Positions 1 to 5,651 of a stretch of DNA of 5,797 nt are shown here, piece by piece; position 1 is the first letter of the stretch; every line of letters begins with the position of its first letter. The stretch is taken from NCBI GenBank assembly GCA_003157225.1, contig PMIZ01000137.1, forward strand, positions 6,704-12,500, in the 5' to 3' direction. The stretch is from Actinomycetota bacterium (GTDB taxonomy: Bacteria > Actinomycetota > Thermoleophilia > RBG-16-64-13). The position numbers were made by a program, and so were the translations under genes. Under the pieces are notes generated by a model. It ran no database searches. It was not told the DNA's origin and saw only the letters and a program-made list of their open reading frames with translations.

Positions 1-71
1 CCGGCCGGCCCGGCGCCGACGACGATGGCGTCGAAGGACGCAGCCCCGCGGGTCGCCGCGCTACTGGACAT
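1..71 (-). CDS. FAD-dependent oxidoreductase, N-terminal fragment (probable FixC/ETF-quinone oxidoreductase-like), cut by window edge
   Basis: Only the first 23 codons plus two bases are present. The peptide starts MSSSAATRGAASFDAIVVGA and runs into GPA, with the next codon beginning GG (Gly), giving FDAIVVGAGPAG. This is the beta-alpha-beta ADP-binding fingerprint that opens FAD-dependent oxidoreductases of the GxGxxG class. The ATG at 71 lies inside the last codons of the ETF alpha gene, in another frame, with an 11-base overlap, as expected for a coupled operon. A FixC-type protein (ETF-quinone oxidoreductase) is the most likely identity because it follows an ETF alpha gene and starts with this fingerprint. 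A different flavoprotein, such as a thioredoxin-reductase-like or monooxygenase-like protein, cannot be excluded from so short a piece. The short Ser/Ala-rich lead before the fingerprint resembles neither a signal peptide nor a membrane segment. Confidence 0.75.
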   Translation of the reverse strand, partial: MSSSAATRGAASFDAIVVGAGPA

Positions 72-1104
72 CGGAACCACCGCCCGCGGGCGCGTCGCGC
101 CATGCCTTGATCTTGTCGATGAGCGACGGCAGGACCTCCTGGAGGTCGGCCACGTAGCCGACATCGGAGAACTGGAAGATGGGCGCCCTCGTATCGCGGT
201 TGATCGAGAGAATGCGGTTGGCACTGCGCACTCCGGCTACATGGTGGGGCGAGCCCGAGATGCCGAGCGCTAGATACAGCTCCGGGGAGACCGTGCGGCC
301 CGTCTGACCGATGAGCCGTTCTTTCGGCAGACGTCCGTCGTCCACCACTGGGCGGGTGGCCCCCACCGAGCCCTCGAGCAGGTCGGCCAACTCCTGAACG
401 GTGGCGAGGAGCTTCTCGCTCGCGCCGCCCGATCCCGCGGCCACGATCCGTTTCGCGTGCACCAGATCCACCGAACGCGCATCCGGCGGCACGAGTTCCA
501 GGTGCCGCGCGCGCGCTCCCAAGGAGGGGGCCGTCTCGAGCATCTCCGGGATAGGCAACGAGCTCAGCACGGAATCGGCCGGCGGCTCCAAGCCGGCCAG
601 CGCCAGCGCGACCACCGCAGTGAACCCCCCTGCTACCTCGACCTCCTGTTCGAGCCAACCGCCATACACCAGCTTGACGAAGGCGATAGATTCTTCTCTG
701 CCGACAGCGCCTTCGGAGTCGGAGGCGCCGCAAGCGGTCCGCCGCTCCGAGCGCACGTCGCCGCAGCCGAGAACCGCTCCCGAACCAAGCCGGTGGGCGA
801 CCATGGGCGCAAGCTGCCTCCCCACATCGGTATCCGCCAGCAGGATGACTCGCGGCCGCAGGGACGCTCCCGACCCTGCGAGGCCGTCCGCGATCGCTTC
901 CAGACTCGATTTCGCCTGCGCGTTCCAGGTGATTGCCCGCGAGTTCACGCCGAGTTCACCAGCGAGGCGGGCGCCCTCGGCCAACAAGACGCGGCCGGTG
1001 GTCACCACAGCGGTCCCCTCCCCGGGCTCCACGGCCACCAACACGCAGCCGGCGACGCCCCGTGGGGTCGCCGAACCTCCCGCCTCCGGAGTCCTCGGCG
1101 TCAT
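61..1104 (-). CDS. etfA: Electron transfer flavoprotein, alpha subunit (FixB/EtfA)
   Basis: FAD-binding subunit of a heterodimeric electron transfer flavoprotein that carries electrons from dehydrogenases to a membrane ETF:quinone oxidoreductase. It is 347 residues, a little longer than the usual 310-330. The C-terminal FAD domain is canonical: GATRPVVDDG (248-257), LIGQTGRTVSPELYLALGIS (264-283), HHVAG (287-291), ILSINRD (298-304), APIFQFSDVGYVADLQEVLP (307-326). R251, T268 and H288 align with the flavin-contacting Arg, Thr and His known from human ETF alpha. The N-terminal domain (about 18-200) is more divergent but keeps VLVAVE and a KLVYGGW strand. The ATG at 1104 overlaps the preceding stop as ATGA; no strong Shine-Dalgarno is present, so translation is probably coupled. 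The last 11 bases overlap the next gene. An alpha subunit normally needs a beta subunit, whose gene usually comes immediately before it; here the OYE-like gene occupies that place. Confidence 0.92.
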   Translation of the reverse strand: MTPRTPEAGGSATPRGVAGCVLVAVEPGEGTAVVTTGRVLLAEGARLAGELGVNSRAITWNAQAKSSLEAIADGLAGSGASLRPRVILLADTDVGRQLAPMVAHRLGSGAVLGCGDVRSERRTACGASDSEGAVGREESIAFVKLVYGGWLEQEVEVAGGFTAVVALALAGLEPPADSVLSSLPIPEMLETAPSLGARARHLELVPPDARSVDLVHAKRIVAAGSGGASEKLLATVQELADLLEGSVGATRPVVDDGRLPKERLIGQTGRTVSPELYLALGISGSPHHVAGVRSANRILSINRDTRAPIFQFSDVGYVADLQEVLPSLIDKIKAWRDAPAGGGSDVQ

Positions 1105-3050
1105 ACCCGCTTGCCCGCCATATAGCCCTCGTGAATGGCCATGTCGACCCGGCGGGGGGCCACGCAGTCCCCCGCCCGCACGAGCTCCGGCACCTTGCCC
1201 TTCAAGGCCAGGTACAGACCGTCGGCTGCGTCGTTGCCCATGGCCGTCACCACGCTGTCATAGCCGGTGATGCTATCCCACACGTTCGAGTACACGTCGA
1301 AGCCATGCAGGTCGGTGCCCCTGATCTCCATGACGGCGAAGTCGGCAGTGAACGTTACCCCCTTCTGCAGCAGACGTTGCCGGGTGAGGTAGAGGTCTTG
1401 TGACGGGCCCAACTCCGAGCCCACGAACAGGCTCGACGTGACCACGTGCACCGTCTTGCCCAATTCCGCCAGGAACTCAGCTGTTGCGGTCGCCTGGTGA
1501 TGCCCGTCGTAGTCGATGAGCAACACCTTCTGCCCCAGCTCGGCCTCGCCGCTCAACACCTGCCAGACGTTGAACACGTTCGGACCGTCGGCGCCGCTCA
1601 CCGGGCGAGGTTTGGGACGGGAACCCGTCGCCACGATCACCGCGTCGGGCCGCTGCTCCAACACGAACTCTGGGGTGACCTCCACGCCCAGCTTCACCGG
1701 AACACCGAGGTTCGCGAGTTGCTTGCGCTCGTTCCGCACGATCACGCCGAACTCGTCGCGTCCGGCGCCCTTGGCCGCCAGCAGTACCTGGCCGCCCAAC
1801 TCGTCGGCCTTCTCGTAGAGCGTCACGTCGTGCCCGCGAAGCGTCGCGATCTTCGCCGCCCACATGCCCGCCGGCCCTCCGCCCACCACCACCACCCGCT
1901 TCTTGCGCAGCGCCGGACGCAGGTGATGCTCGCCCTCCGTGGCCTCGGCGCCCGCCGAGGGGTTCTGAGCGCAGCCGATGGTCTTGTTGAGCCCCACCCT
2001 GCCGTAGCAGTTCTGGTTGCAGGCGATGCAGTAGCGGATCTCCTCGGTGCGCCCCTCGCGCGCCTTGATGGCGAAGTCCGGGTCGGCGATCTGGCCGCGC
2101 ACCACGCCGATCATGTCGGCCTGGCCTTCGGACAAGATCCGCTCGGCCAACGCCGGGTCGTTGATACGCCCCGTCGCGAACACCGGCAGGGTGGCCACCT
2201 CTTTGATACCCGCCGCGAGCGGCACCGCGTAGCCGAGCGGCATGTGCATCGGCCCGCCCACCAGGTACAGGTTGTAGAAGGTGGCGAGCGTGAGGTTGAA
2301 GTAGTCGAGGTTCCCGGTAGCCTGTAACCGCTGGGCTATCTGCTTGGCGTCCTCGAGGGTGAGCCCGCCCGGGATGAGTTCGTCGGCACAGAGCCTGACC
2401 CCGAGGGTGAAGTCGGTACCCAGGGATTCACGGACGGCGGCGACGAGCTCGACGGCAAAGCGCAGCCGGTTTTCGAACTCCCCGCCGTACTCGTCGGTGC
2501 GGAAGTTGGTTAGCGGGGACATGAATTGCCTCGCCAGCGAGCTATGCCCGAACTGCAACTCCACCCCGTCGAACCCGCCCTCGCGTACGTGCACGGCCGA
2601 ACGGGCGAAGTACTCGATCACCTCGCGGATGTCCTCCGGTTCCATGACCTTCGGCGTCTCCCGGTACATCACGTCCGGGATTGCCGACGGCGCCCACACC
2701 GGTAGCCGCGACAGACTGCCGCTGCACTGCTGCCCGTTGTGGTTCAGCTGCGCGAAGACGTGAGTGTCGTAGGCATGCACCGCCTGGGTCAGTCGCCTGT
2801 ACCAGGGGATCACCTCCGGCTTGAAGGCCTCGATGAGGTGCTCGTACGCCCTGTCCGTGGGGTGCACCGACTGCTCCTCGGTGATGATGAGCCCAGTCCC
2901 GCCCCGGGCGCGCGCCGCCAGGTAGCTGATCAGCCGCTCGGTGGGCAGCCCCTCGTTCGCGAGGTTGGTGAGATGCGCCGAGAAGGAGATACGGTTGGCG
3001 ACGGTCACCCGTCCGATTCGCAGTGGACTGAAGAGGTGAGGGAACTGCAT
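1101..3050 (-). CDS. Old Yellow Enzyme/2,4-dienoyl-CoA reductase-type oxidoreductase (FMN, 4Fe-4S, FAD), mycofactocin-associated
   Basis: Multi-cofactor flavoenzyme of 649 residues with the usual FadH-like layout. Residues 1 to about 335 form an FMN-binding TIM barrel (LFSPLRIG, FAQLNHNG, FMSPLTNFRTDEYGGEFENRLRF at 176-198). A CxxCxxxCx11C iron-sulfur motif follows (C341, C344, C348, C360). The C-terminal dinucleotide/FAD domain has GGGPAG at 390-395, the acidic end YEK (412-414), VATGSRP (473-479) and a final AGDC (626-629). Such enzymes move electrons from NAD(P)H through FAD and 4Fe-4S to FMN, which reduces an activated double bond. Oddity: the active-site stretch reads GHSSL (168-172), where relatives usually have GHGYL or EGYL, so the tyrosine used as proton donor in dienoyl-CoA reductases seems to be Ser171. 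An exceptionally good Shine-Dalgarno, AAGGAGGT (3068-3061), sits inside the end of mftC; the gap to mftC is 3 bases. It ends in an ATGA overlap with the ETF gene. Families of this type are known beside mycofactocin genes, but their substrate is not established. Confidence 0.9.
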   Translation of the reverse strand: MQFPHLFSPLRIGRVTVANRISFSAHLTNLANEGLPTERLISYLAARARGGTGLIITEEQSVHPTDRAYEHLIEAFKPEVIPWYRRLTQAVHAYDTHVFAQLNHNGQQCSGSLSRLPVWAPSAIPDVMYRETPKVMEPEDIREVIEYFARSAVHVREGGFDGVELQFGHSSLARQFMSPLTNFRTDEYGGEFENRLRFAVELVAAVRESLGTDFTLGVRLCADELIPGGLTLEDAKQIAQRLQATGNLDYFNLTLATFYNLYLVGGPMHMPLGYAVPLAAGIKEVATLPVFATGRINDPALAERILSEGQADMIGVVRGQIADPDFAIKAREGRTEEIRYCIACNQNCYGRVGLNKTIGCAQNPSAGAEATEGEHHLRPALRKKRVVVVGGGPAGMWAAKIATLRGHDVTLYEKADELGGQVLLAAKGAGRDEFGVIVRNERKQLANLGVPVKLGVEVTPEFVLEQRPDAVIVATGSRPKPRPVSGADGPNVFNVWQVLSGEAELGQKVLLIDYDGHHQATATAEFLAELGKTVHVVTSSLFVGSELGPSQDLYLTRQRLLQKGVTFTADFAVMEIRGTDLHGFDVYSNVWDSITGYDSVVTAMGNDAADGLYLALKGKVPELVRAGDCVAPRRVDMAIHEGYMAGKRV

Positions 3051-3053
3051 AGC

Positions 3054-4121
3054 CTACGCTACCTCCTTGGTTGGCAGAACAGCGCGCAGACACTCGGGGT
3101 CGGGCAGACCTGTGGACCTCGTCAAGAAGTATCCCACCGCCGGACAGCCGCCGTGGCACACGTTGAAACGGTCACAATCACGGCAGCTCGCCACCTCCAG
3201 GTTGCGAAACCGCTCGAAAACAGGAGAGGCTTCGAAGATCACCGACAACGGCTGCTCGGTAACGTTGCCGGCGAGAAACTCCGGATCGCAGAGGAACGCG
3301 CACGGATAGACGCCACCGTTCGGAGCGACCGCACAGGTCATCTTGGCGGCGCCGCACATGTTGAGTCCCAGGGCTCGCCGGCTCTCGGGCGTGAGAGCGA
3401 AGAACGAGTCGCCGGTGAGAATCTCGGGATGGTCGCCGAGGAAGGTGGAGAGCTCCAGCAGTTGCTCCCGGCTCAACCGGTAGTCCTCCCAGGTGCCACA
3501 TCCCGCGCCCGAAGGCCGGAAGCGCGAGAGACGCGTCTTCGCGTGGTACCGCTGCGCCAGCCGCTGGAAATCGGCCAGTTCGCCCGCGTTGAGACGGGTG
3601 ACCACCATGTTCAAGCTGAGATCGGGATACCTTCGCTCCGACAGCAACTCGATGCCCGCCAGAATGCGCTCGAACGTCCCCGCGCCGCGGATGGCGTCGT
3701 TAGTCTCCGCATAGGCACCGTCAAGGCTCACCTGCAGGTAGACCGGCGCCATATCCAGCAGCTCATCTATGAGACAGTCGCTGAGCACTGTCCCGTTGGT
3801 GCTCACGCAGGTCGTGAGGCCGCGCAGGTGGGCGTAGTGGAGCACCGGGAGGAAGTCGGGGCGCAGGAAGGGTTCCCCTCCCCCGAAGTTGATCTGAAAC
3901 ACCTCCATGCCGGCCAGTTCGTCGATGAGCGCTCGGCATAGCGGCAGATCGAGCTCGCCGGGCCGAGCCGACCAAACGGGCGTCCCGCACTCGCTCACCG
4001 GCTCCCGCCCGCGCAGGTCCGCCGACAGGCAGTGACTGCACGAGAGATTGCAGGCCTCGGTGATCTCCCAGGTCACGTTCACCGGCGCTCGGAGGCGAGT
4101 GCTACTCAGTCTCGGCAGCAA
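3054..4121 (-). CDS. mftC: Mycofactocin radical SAM maturase MftC
   Basis: Radical SAM/SPASM peptide maturase, 355 residues. By family knowledge it decarboxylates the C-terminal Tyr of MftA and joins it to the neighbouring Val. Seen: the radical SAM cluster CNLSCSHC (C24, C28, C31); the SAM-binding GGGEP (80-84); QVSLDGA (130-136) and AIRGAGTF; then TGDSFF (236-241) and LNMCGA, which are strongly MftC-like. The SPASM region carries C256, C263, C274, C313, C316, C322, C326 and C344, with the final DPEC. The LAGNV block (283-287) also matches mycobacterial MftC from memory. The start is TTG at 4121: an in-frame TGA lies just upstream (4127-4125) and AAAGGG (4134-4129) is seven bases before it. 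A GTG at 4082 (codon 14) is possible but would leave only ten residues before the first cluster Cys. Oddities are a linker of about 13-16 extra residues after the CxxxCxxC motif (around 40-55) with an extra Cys45, and an extra Cys278. Confidence 0.95.
   Translation of the reverse strand: MLPRLSSTRLRAPVNVTWEITEACNLSCSHCLSADLRGREPVSECGTPVWSARPGELDLPLCRALIDELAGMEVFQINFGGGEPFLRPDFLPVLHYAHLRGLTTCVSTNGTVLSDCLIDELLDMAPVYLQVSLDGAYAETNDAIRGAGTFERILAGIELLSERRYPDLSLNMVVTRLNAGELADFQRLAQRYHAKTRLSRFRPSGAGCGTWEDYRLSREQLLELSTFLGDHPEILTGDSFFALTPESRRALGLNMCGAAKMTCAVAPNGGVYPCAFLCDPEFLAGNVTEQPLSVIFEASPVFERFRNLEVASCRDCDRFNVCHGGCPAVGYFLTRSTGLPDPECLRAVLPTKEVA
3061..3068 (-). promoter_or_regulatory. Near-perfect Shine-Dalgarno of the OYE-like gene
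   Basis: AAGGAGGT on the minus strand, ten bases before the ATG at 3050. It is embedded in the last codons of mftC (Lys-Glu-Val). It supports the ATG at 3050 as the true start and suggests that this enzyme is translated efficiently on its own rather than only by coupling. Confidence 0.8.
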
Positions 4122-4389
4122 TGATCAACCCTTTGGCGAGCAGATTCTCGAGTAGTCGCGACACTGCCGTCCCGGGCCGCCGCTCACCCTCGCTAAGTCG
4201 AAGCACACGCCGGCCGCCGGTGAACGGCGGAGGCACCAAGCTCAGGCCCGAGCGTGCGAACGTCAGCTTGGTGGACCGTGTGTCGTAGAAGAGCAGCCCG
4301 AAGCTCTCTTTCCTAACACGCACCCAGTCCGGGACTAGGTATTCGGGCGTCGAAGTCGCCGGCTCAGTTCCGGGTCGTTCAATAGACAC
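4102..4389 (-). CDS. mftB: Mycofactocin biosynthesis chaperone MftB
   Basis: Small PqqD-like RiPP recognition protein that binds the MftA leader and delivers it to MftC in the cytosol; 95 residues with the start chosen here, typical of the family. Diagnostic stretch: WVRVRKESFGLLFYD (22-36) followed by RSTKLTFARSG, matching the MftB pattern of V-R-x-E-x-F-G-x-L-x-Y plus a TRKL.F strand. The C-terminal half (about 70-90) forms the expected helix and ends LLAKGLIIA. The start is GTG at 4389, inside the last codons of mftA. The frame stays open upstream to an ATG at 4500, but that reading would place 37 Arg/Trp-rich, non-conserved residues (RTTRWRRF, KRSRWKTW) over almost all of mftA and is rejected. 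The Shine-Dalgarno before the GTG is weak, so translation is probably coupled to mftA. Its 3' end overlaps mftC by 20 bases. The exact start is less certain than the identity. Confidence 0.9.
   Translation of the reverse strand: MSIERPGTEPATSTPEYLVPDWVRVRKESFGLLFYDTRSTKLTFARSGLSLVPPPFTGGRRVLRLSEGERRPGTAVSRLLENLLAKGLIIAAETE
4129..4134 (-). promoter_or_regulatory. Shine-Dalgarno supporting the TTG start of mftC
   Basis: AAAGGG on the minus strand, seven bases before the TTG at 4121 and inside the mftB coding sequence. Together with an in-frame TGA at 4127-4125, it makes the TTG the earliest and best-placed start for mftC. Confidence 0.55.
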
Positions 4390-4504
4390 CGCAAATGCCG
4401 TCCACAGCCAGGTCTTCCACCTCGATCTCTTCGAGGATCGCCGGCTCGTCGGCAGAAGCAGCGCCGGGAACCTTCGCCAGCGCGTCGTCCTTATGGGCAT
4501 CCAT
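4379..4504 (-). CDS. mftA: Mycofactocin precursor peptide MftA
   Basis: A 41-residue ribosomal precursor of the redox cofactor mycofactocin. The peptide begins MDAHKDDALAKV, has an acidic leader segment (EEIEVEDLA, residues 25-33) and ends exactly in VDGICGVY before TGA. This is the family hallmark: mycobacterial MftA ends in IDGMCGVY (from memory), so the Gly-x-Cys-Gly-Val-Tyr end is kept and one residue differs (Ile for Met). By family knowledge, MftC acts on the terminal Val40-Tyr41, decarboxylating Tyr and forming a Val-Tyr C-C bond; later enzymes release and convert this end into the cofactor, and the leader binds MftB. The ATG at 4504 has a strong Shine-Dalgarno, GGAGGT at 4519-4514, nine bases upstream. 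The 3' end overlaps mftB by 11 bases. The gene is easily missed because of its size and because an unrelated frame is open across it. Confidence 0.96.
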   Translation of the reverse strand: MDAHKDDALAKVPGAASADEPAILEEIEVEDLAVDGICGVY

Positions 4505-4541: not shown

Positions 4542-5651
4542 TCAGTCCCACACGCAGACCCAGCGCCCACCAAGCTGGCGCCGTTCCATCTTCTCGGCGA
4601 TTTCGTTCAACTGCTCGAGCTTGAACTTGCCCTCGATAATCTTGTCGATCTTCATGTCCTCGGTCATGGCGAGATCGCACAGTTTGGGGATATCGTCCTG
4701 CACGGTCACCGAGCCGTACAATCCGGTCAGGATGGACTTCTGCTGCAGGATCATGTAGGTAAAGGGCAATTTTGCCACCTGGTCCTGGCCCATGATCCCG
4801 AGAACCATGATCTTGCCCGCCATGGCCAGCGTCCACACCGCCTGTTCAATGGCGCCGGGGTCGCCGGAAGCCTCGAACGCATAGTCCAAGCCCCCACCGG
4901 TGAGTTCCTTGATGATGGGCACGGGATCGTCCTTGGAGCTGCAGATGAAGTGCGTGGCGCCCAGCTCCATGGCGATAGAACGGCGCGACTCCTCCAGATC
5001 GATGGCGATGAGCGGGTAGGCTTGACGCATCTTGGCCGCACGCAGCACGTTCTGACCAACGCCTCCCAGCCCCCACACGGCCACCTTGTCGCCCGGCAGC
5101 ACACCCGCTAGTTTCGTCACCGAACTCCAACCGGTAGGTATGCAGCAGCTCATGAGACACGCCCATTCGAGAGGCACGTCTTTGCGGATCGGAACGAGAC
5201 CGCCCTCCGGGACCACCGTATGGTCGGAGAAGCCCGACACGAAGTTGCCATGCAAGACGGTATTGCCCTTGGCATCCCTAAGGCGACTGGTGCCGTCGAG
5301 CATGGTGCCCGACACAAAGTGCGTGAAGTTGCCCGTGCACACGTTGCCCAAGCCACGCCGGCACTCGGGGCAGTGACCGCAGGGGATCATCCAGGTACCG
5401 ACCACATGGTCGCCCACCTTGACCCGGGTCACGCCTTCGCCTACCTTCTCCACAACCCCGGCGCACTCGTGCCCCGCCACCAGCGGCAGAGCCATGGTGA
5501 TGCGGCCCGTGATGTTGCTGAGGTCACTATGGCAATAACCGGTGTAGAGCCACTTGACCAGCGCCTCGCCGGCATGGGGATCATCGAGCTCCAGTTCCTC
5601 GAAGCTATAGGGCTTATTGACTTCGCGCAGCACCGCAGCTTTGATCTTCAC
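4542..5651 (-). CDS. Zinc-dependent medium-chain alcohol dehydrogenase, probably mycofactocin-linked (NDMA-dependent type)
   Basis: Predicted cytosolic alcohol dehydrogenase of the MDR superfamily, 369 residues, normal for class I/III-like members. Seen: catalytic zinc ligands C40 (in YCHSD), H61-E62 (GHE) and C169 (SCCIPTGW); a structural zinc lobe C91, C94, C97, C105 (CGHCPEC...C); Rossmann motif GLGGVG at 194-199; and D218 at the end of beta-2, which favours NAD(H) over NADP(H). The segment around MLDGTSR (117-123) matches the longer class III-like ADHs. The start is GTG at 5651, chosen because GGAAGGGG (5665-5658) lies six bases upstream; no ATG, GTG or TTG occurs further upstream in frame within the window. 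Only 37 bases separate its TGA from mftA, so it is probably co-transcribed with the mycofactocin genes. Known of the family: MDR enzymes beside mft genes hold NAD(H) tightly and need mycofactocin, or the artificial acceptor NDMA, for turnover. That this protein belongs to that group is inference from context and overall similarity; the substrate is unknown. Confidence 0.9.
   Translation of the reverse strand: MKIKAAVLREVNKPYSFEELELDDPHAGEALVKWLYTGYCHSDLSNITGRITMALPLVAGHECAGVVEKVGEGVTRVKVGDHVVGTWMIPCGHCPECRRGLGNVCTGNFTHFVSGTMLDGTSRLRDAKGNTVLHGNFVSGFSDHTVVPEGGLVPIRKDVPLEWACLMSCCIPTGWSSVTKLAGVLPGDKVAVWGLGGVGQNVLRAAKMRQAYPLIAIDLEESRRSIAMELGATHFICSSKDDPVPIIKELTGGGLDYAFEASGDPGAIEQAVWTLAMAGKIMVLGIMGQDQVAKLPFTYMILQQKSILTGLYGSVTVQDDIPKLCDLAMTEDMKIDKIIEGKFKLEQLNEIAEKMERRQLGGRWVCVWD

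Follow-up and report, generated by a model that had tools for sequence, protein, structure and literature searches.

The stretch of DNA analysed here, hereafter the window, comprises 5,797 nucleotides of an Actinomycetota bacterium (contig PMIZ01000137.1) and carries a mycofactocin operon in which the genes of an OYE-like flavoenzyme (OYE) and of electron transfer flavoprotein (ETF) and Fix-like proteins follow the maturase gene mftC. In the samples examined, OYE and mftD, the gene of premycofactocin synthase, exclude each other, and the OYE-ETF-Fix block is probably a substitute for MftD. All genes of the window lie on the minus strand, in the following order:

4542..5651, minus strand: Zn-dependent alcohol dehydrogenase (ADH), a relative of the NDMA-dependent (nicotinoprotein) ADH (PF00107, PF08240)
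4379..4504, minus strand: mftA, variant-type mycofactocin precursor with the C-terminus VDGICGVY (NF040489)
4102..4500, minus strand: mftB, open reading frame of the peptide chaperone, its downstream two thirds being the homologous part (TIGR03967; mftB of relatives)
3054..4121, minus strand: mftC, radical SAM maturase of a divergent branch in the MftC tree (TIGR03962)
1101..3050, minus strand: OYE, a FadH/trimethylamine dehydrogenase (TMADH)-like Fe-S flavoenzyme of mycofactocin system OYE family 2 (TIGR03997)
61..1104, minus strand: etfA, ETF alpha subunit (etfA/fixB-like; PF00766, 97 bits, cut-off 27; best PDB matches 5ol2_A and 7koe_B)
1..71, minus strand: start of a fixC-like ETF:quinone oxidoreductase gene (first 71 bases, with ATG and GxGxxG), the window ending inside fixC

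This operon is genuine. The precursor matches NF040489 ('variant-type mycofactocin precursor') best (41.1 bits, cut-off 30) and also passes TIGR03969 (26.9 bits, cut-off 25); MftB (35 bits, cut-off 33), which matches the mftB of relatives, MftC (316.8 bits, cut-off 265) and OYE (949.8 bits, cut-off 793.15) all pass their family models. The ADH stays under the cut-off of TIGR03989 for NDMA-dependent ADH (300.9 bits against 440), as does the ETF alpha subunit for the mycofactocin-associated family NF038209 (137.1 bits against 240), and no mftF lies within the window. Only 3 bases separate mftC from OYE, and OYE/etfA and etfA/fixC overlap by 4 and 11 bases, respectively, which fits a single transcript. 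An earlier note on this DNA, made from the sequence alone, had placed an OYE-like enzyme, an ETF alpha subunit and the start of a GxGxxG flavoprotein directly after mftC, and both the coordinates and the family scores confirm this description.

A scan of species genomes for OYE yielded 21 loci in 20 genomes, 13 of which (G001-G012 and G018) carry an OYE of the window type. The OYE proteins of loci L001-L013 are 68-87% identical to that of the window, the OYE of L019 being partial. The order mftB-mftC-OYE-etfA-fixC-fixX-etfB-mftF is kept in ten loci (L001, L002, L004-L010 and L013; by record title nine actinobacterial and one, L007, deltaproteobacterial), so that the arrangement of the window is not due to chance, and the single functional unit postulated in the earlier note is borne out. 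Two further loci agree as far as they are present: L011 (Candidatus Goldiibacteriota), whose contig is cut in fixX, and L019 (Dehalococcoidia), whose contig begins inside OYE. Gene by gene, L007 encodes ADH, MftB, MftC, OYE_2, EtfA, FixC, FixX, EtfB and MftF (340.6 bits, cut-off 280), followed by another radical SAM protein; tblastn matches to mftF were obtained in all ten loci. The rest of fixC, an ETF beta gene and a ferredoxin-like gene, for which that note had advised looking downstream, are thus present in the relatives, and the window-type unit carries a full FixABCX-like set.

An ADH of the window kind lies upstream in seven of the ten complete loci, at a distance of some 4 kb in L005. 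The precursor ends in GICGVY throughout L001-L013 (VDGICGVY or IDGICGVY), and IDGMCGVY is found instead in L015, L017 and L048-L051. MftC scores 309-374 bits in the 11 window-type genomes with a passing match and 584-607 bits in G013-G017. Among the 13 window-type genomes, no mftC over the cut-off was found in G003, where mftA directly precedes OYE, or in G018, whose contig begins inside OYE. At two loci (L012:6499-11900 and L003:2700-8800) mftA stands directly before OYE with no mftB or mftC between them, and at L090:8001-14800 OYE follows an mftC stub matching about 55 residues; the precursor and the OYE-ETF-Fix genes thus seem able to sit without maturation genes.

The distribution of OYE and mftD was surveyed in three samples: class 1 (the class of G012, 299 genomes sampled), class 2 (the class of G014, 237 genomes, with E-value limits of 1e-190 for OYE and 1e-110 for mftD) and plasmids, for which the plasmid record alone was searched, the chromosome not being included. 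Class 1 holds 21 genomes with mftC over the cut-off, ten of them scoring 323-356 bits (lower band) and the other eleven 613-655 bits (upper band). All ten genomes of the lower band have OYE (eight over the cut-off, G012 frame-broken with 759 bits and G076 cut by a contig end with 658 bits), mftD passes in 11 genomes that are exactly those of the upper band, and none has both. The sole other class-1 genome above the OYE cut-off, G003, is without mftC. In class 2, where 50 genomes have mftC, OYE was found in 20 genomes, all with mftC (18 over the cut-off, G482 cut by a contig end with 787 bits and G443 with 764 bits), and mftD in 30, 29 of them together with mftC; at the limits used, no genome carries both. 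Two class-2 genomes stand apart: G474 has mftD and no mftC match at the limit used, and G506 has mftC at a contig end and neither OYE nor mftD at these limits.

Pooling both classes, the 71 genomes with mftC comprise 30 with OYE, 40 with mftD, none with both and one with neither. The 12 plasmid records with mftC divide into eight with OYE and four with mftD, again without overlap; the plasmid OYE proteins come from six Streptomyces (70-76% identity; in SAT1 the OYE is split in two and not listed as a gene) and two haloarchaea (37-38%). Overall, 83 mftC units contain OYE in 38 cases, mftD in 44, both in none and neither in one. If the two labels were unrelated, and kinship being ignored, the chance of zero overlap would be about 3e-6 in class 1 and 4.5e-13 in class 2. 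For an MftC tree of 56 rows, the best topology implies seven changes of the OYE/mftD state; if strongly supported branches alone are counted, the minimum is three. That OYE and mftD exclude each other in these samples is new here.

In class 1 and on the plasmids, the OYE/EtfAB/FixCX block occupies the place of mftD. In the mftD-type loci of class 1, mftC adjoins mftD in 11 out of 11 and mftE lies beside mftD in ten, being on the other side of mftC in L099; no OYE or Fix genes were found in the stretches around these 11 loci. The Streptomyces plasmids show the order mftA-B-C-OYE_1-OYE_2-etfA-fixC-fixX-etfB-(SDR)-mftF-mftE in the block type (in NBC_00564 mftE comes after etfB; SDR, short-chain dehydrogenase/reductase) and mftR-mftG-mftA-B-C-D-E-F in the mftD type. 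Streptomyces sp. NBC_00080 belongs to the mftD type. On the haloarchaeal plasmids the block stands on the strand opposite mftA-B2-C and a glycosyltransferase gene, annotated solely as generic flavoproteins. Among the 19 OYE_2 regions of class 2, etfA and fixC are found beside OYE_2 in 15, one more (L110) reaching the contig end just past OYE_2. The stretch includes mftC in 11 of the 19, and five loci (L106, L111, L118, L119 and L121) display the straight order mftC-OYE_1-OYE_2-etfA-fixC-fixX-...-mftE.

We then searched the MftD, MftG and MftE families (cut-offs of 470.85, 387.45 and 172 bits, respectively) in the 20 genomes behind the OYE scan. In the 13 window-type genomes, neither mftD (best match 39.9 bits) nor mftE (best match 93.6 bits) was found over the cut-off, and the window itself holds no mftD. 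No mftG over the cut-off was detected in any of the 20 genomes, in the ten class-1 genomes with the variant mftC and OYE, or in 13 class-2 OYE genomes, of which G432 has a full-length relative of 328.8 bits. In G012 the operon lies on a 4.6-Mb contig, so an assembly hole is an unlikely cause of the missing genes there. Yet nine of the 11 class-1 genomes of the mftD type are likewise without mftG over the cut-off; two of these nine, G109 and G194, have at the mft locus mftG matches of 377 and 365 bits, respectively. The lack of mftG alone therefore does not single out the block. The suggestion of the earlier note that the chain replaces MftG agrees with the OYE genomes tested, none of which has mftG over the cut-off, but it is incomplete and not borne out in that form, as the gene that the distribution of OYE mirrors is mftD, not mftG.

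These data bear on a narrower explanation, in line with the route drawn in the earlier note, according to which the block only re-oxidizes reduced mycofactocin, as an equivalent of MftG; the absence of mftD would then have a separate cause, such as formation of the keto group by a different FMN enzyme. Besides the missing mftG, the annotated plasmid regions, whose gene tables are incomplete, list mftG in none of seven block-type and two of four mftD-type clusters. An exit chain to quinone would suit a catabolic flux, and the potentials permit electron flow from mycofactocinol to menaquinone (E0' of -255 mV for premycofactocin against -74 mV for menaquinone; PMC11778925; statements cited by PMC number rest on excerpts of these papers). 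In addition, the module occurs twice in L012, the further copy having a separate mftA but no mftBC and lying about 5 kb downstream of an ADH. However, OYE and the absence of mftD go together in 82 of the 83 mftC units (the remaining one having neither gene), the mftD-type genomes of class 1 mostly lack mftG too, and the block sits among biosynthetic genes in class 1 and on the plasmids. We thus regard a role restricted to re-oxidation as unlikely.

The motifs of OYE were read from an alignment of ten window-type proteins, which was then aligned to FadH, TMADH and histamine dehydrogenase. Two of them map to the window as follows:

1971..2030, minus strand: [4Fe-4S] motif of OYE, Cys341-x2-Cys344-x3-Cys348-x11-Cys360 (ten-protein alignment; FadH and TMADH alignment)
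1491..1517, minus strand: degenerate second nucleotide site of OYE, IDYDGHHQA, without GxGxxG (DYDGHHQ invariant in the ten proteins)

The second cysteine of the cluster motif (residue 344) is Asp in three of the ten proteins (L007, L008 and L011), where a Cys3Asp cluster is possible. The first GxGxxG is kept in the alignment. The second nucleotide site aligns with those of TMADH and histamine dehydrogenase, both without GxGxxG, whereas E. coli FadH has GxGxxG there. The window OYE has Ser171 at the position of the FadH Tyr and His169 at that of the TMADH His; FadH Tyr166 and TMADH His172 have functional roles in those enzymes. Leu27, which follows the His26 invariant in the ten proteins, is found at the position of the flavin-binding Cys of TMADH (Cys30, the 6-S-cysteinyl FMN cysteine).

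By sequence, the best PDB matches of OYE are NCR and FadH, TMADH and histamine dehydrogenase being further relatives, and BaiCD is its second match in NCBIfam (420.5 bits). These reductases raise the possibility that OYE reduces an enone-type substrate, with ETF supplying the electrons. We consider such a reductive role very improbable, since the Ser at the FadH Tyr position and the degenerate second nucleotide site recur in the ten proteins, a reductase leaves the exchange with mftD unexplained, and FixCX suggests that electrons leave to quinone. Some sources name two close relatives of OYE_2, P0284 and P0289, 'N-methylproline demethylase' or 'dimethylglycine demethylation protein DgcA', that is, amine-oxidizing enzymes.

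As to the electron acceptors, a path to quinone through the OYE-like flavoenzyme, EtfAB and FixC/FixX is plausible, and in this anatomy the exit chain of the earlier note was right. The nearest PDB match to the FixC of L007 is that of the T. maritima EtfABCX (7koe_C, 289.5 bits), and each of the 14 FixX sequences aligned shows a pair of four-Cys motifs (counted by eye). Both features could also point to an electron-bifurcating FixABCX, in which quinone and ferredoxin would each receive a share of the electrons from reduced mycofactocin or NADH. However, the DGDTAQVG stretch of bifurcating EtfB chains, a motif proxy taken from PDB alignments, is kept in none of the 13 operon EtfB proteins, which does not favour bifurcation, and no further ferredoxin occurs among the other nine annotated genes of L007; bifurcation thus appears very improbable. 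The ETF beta of L007 falls under the cut-off of TIGR04503, the mycofactocin-associated ETF beta family. In four class-2 loci, the gene between fixX and mftE encodes an ETF beta candidate, whose ETF domain is above the Pfam cut-off in three and below it in one; two of the four pass TIGR04503.

In M. smegmatis, MftE frees the AHDP core, and MftD then converts it to premycofactocin by oxidative deamination; mutants without mftD make no mycofactocin and accumulate AHDP, and those without mftE still make the cofactor, at a lower level (PMC7491314). As mftD is needed there, a cluster without mftD must obtain the keto group elsewhere. Among the genes surveyed, only OYE has a distribution that matches the absence of mftD, and it takes the same position in class 1 and on the plasmids. 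We therefore propose, from gene content, gene order, protein motifs and the mutual exclusion of OYE and mftD, that the OYE (one or two copies)-EtfA-FixC-FixX-EtfB block could be a non-orthologous substitute for MftD, a reading to which we give a probability of roughly 55%. MftA, MftB and MftC would make the cyclized Val-Tyr core, which MftE would release, or a different peptidase in clusters that lack mftE. The OYE-like enzyme would then use its FMN to oxidize the C3 carbon of the lactam from amine to keto, like MftD in mycobacteria. We infer that electrons would pass from FMN to the [4Fe-4S] cluster, EtfAB (FAD), FixC (FAD), FixX (two [4Fe-4S]) and the quinone pool instead of O2. TMADH, an Fe-S flavoenzyme of the same architecture, provides a precedent for such a reaction: it oxidizes its substrate amine and hands electrons from its [4Fe-4S] cluster to ETF and on to ETF:quinone oxidoreductase (PMC8097209).

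MftG oxidizes the C3 alcohol of reduced mycofactocin (PMC11778925). Since this is the same C3 carbon, the block may do both the MftD and the MftG jobs; the same chain would probably re-oxidize the C3 alcohol, and two OYE paralogues, where present, may divide the two reactions. The case for the MftG job is the weaker one, given the uneven occurrence of mftG in the block and mftD types alike. The MftD step is described as aerobic (PMC8406134), and the block would accordingly free keto formation from O2. Tentatively, and with less confidence than in the substitution itself, we envisage an O2-independent route in which TMADH-like dehydrogenases would oxidize C3 twice (amine to keto, then alcohol to keto at each turnover), both draining via ETF-FixCX to quinone, the MftD/MftG half of the pathway having been exchanged several times in Actinobacteria, a deltaproteobacterium, other bacteria and haloarchaea.

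Several observations weigh against the substitution of MftD by the block. The window-type group is also without mftE over the cut-off, so mftD is not the sole change. The mftD homologues of 251-289 bits in G014-G016 could do the MftD job, and the E-value limits of class 2 leave room for weaker OYE or mftD homologues. The three independent swaps on strongly supported branches are all concordant, giving a sign test p of 0.25, the minimum attainable. Outside the samples, G013 (loci L014, L143 and L144), a 5.3-Mb Acidimicrobiia metagenome-assembled genome, has OYE_1 and OYE_2 over the cut-off together with an mftD of 565.5 bits. This mftD sits apart, on a contig of 6.7 kb that yielded no other mft gene, and G013 is possibly an exception or a mixture of genomes. 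Three of the 19 OYE_2 regions of class 2 (L104, L105 and L112, from G328, G360 and G470) show OYE_2 alone; in these genomes OYE_1 stands beside mftC on another contig (L153-L155), neither stretch holds etfA or fixC, and the arrangement is either a scattered block or an OYE lacking its ETF. Among 20 mftD regions of class 2, mftC lies within 4 kb of mftD in just eight (L130, L131, L134-L136 and L140-L142), and position thus says little in this class. The predicted fold is no guide to the reaction, as the AlphaFold model of OYE (mean pLDDT 83.8) resembles NCR, TMADH, FadH and histamine dehydrogenase about equally. A four-protein exit chain is, moreover, large for a single biosynthetic oxidation. 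Finally, Rhodococcus, a genus outside the OYE surveys that NCBI model comments are reported to mention with Frankia for the OYE families, may hold a counter-example. R. jostii RHA1 is reported to have a protein of TIGR03966, the MftD family (Haft 2011, PMC3023750).

Compared with the canonical mycobacterial mftABCDEF(G) cluster, the window shares mftA, mftB and mftC, its relatives also mftF, and the Val-Tyr end of the core is kept, but OYE, EtfA, FixC, FixX and EtfB stand in the place of mftD, and neither mftG nor, in the window type, mftE was found over the cut-off. In contrast, mftE is present in the class-2 and Streptomyces block-type clusters. The window shares with the TMADH-ETF-ETF:quinone oxidoreductase chain a one-protein FMN/[4Fe-4S]/nucleotide-domain enzyme beside ETF and an ETF:quinone oxidoreductase-like protein, and with TMADH itself the [4Fe-4S] Cys motif and the degenerate second nucleotide site; however, OYE is only 27-28% identical to TMADH (structural alignment) and has Leu27 instead of the flavin-binding Cys. 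The relatives, with FixC and FixX, have the same four-subunit gene set as EtfABCX/FixABCX and a closely related FixC, but their EtfB lacks the motif of the bifurcating chain, an OYE dehydrogenase is added, and the genes are located in a cluster for a ribosomally synthesized and post-translationally modified peptide. MftG, a mycofactocin dehydrogenase of the GMC family unrelated to the proteins of the block, would, like the block, link mycofactocin oxidation to respiration.

The association of OYE_1, OYE_2, mft_etfA and mft_etfB with mycofactocin is already known from NCBIfam and public record names. These models (OYE family 1, TIGR03996; OYE family 2, TIGR03997; ETF alpha and beta, NF038209 and TIGR04503) state association only; the window OYE and MftA pass the OYE family 2 and variant-type precursor (NF040489) models. 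The MftD family has been described in most, not all, mycofactocin species (Haft 2011, PMC3023750), and the excerpts of PMC3023750, PMC7491314, PMC8406134 and PMC11778925 on which we draw contain no mention of an OYE/mftD exchange. The eLife 2025 paper on MftG noted that a quarter of the mftC genomes are without mftG and left open how the cofactor is re-oxidized there (PMC11778925). An OYE that excludes mftD in three samples is a concrete candidate for the missing MftD and the missing MftG alike, and it is available in complete sequence records of Streptomyces and haloarchaeal plasmids. If the proposal is true, OYE_1, OYE_2, mft_etfA and mft_etfB, so far named by association only, would acquire a function, and it would point to a way of producing mycofactocin in organisms that live without O2, the known reaction that forms its keto group being aerobic.

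Some neighbourhoods are worth recording. On large linear Streptomyces plasmids, four block-type clusters (L159, from Streptomyces yangpuensis, L164, L165 and L166) lie beside polyketide-type biosynthesis genes, and three of the four have a 'mycofactocin-coupled SDR'. The Haloterrigena and Halolamina plasmids carry a divergent OYE-etfA-fixC-fixX-etfB block (L158:17486-23184 and L163:13491-19723). In L010:4800-8300 no ADH precedes the operon, and genes for corrinoid-like and uroporphyrinogen-decarboxylase-like proteins (named by eye) and an SDR lie upstream instead, behind genes of a branched-chain amino-acid-type ABC transporter; a 449-amino-acid gene of this group also occurs in L006 and L013.

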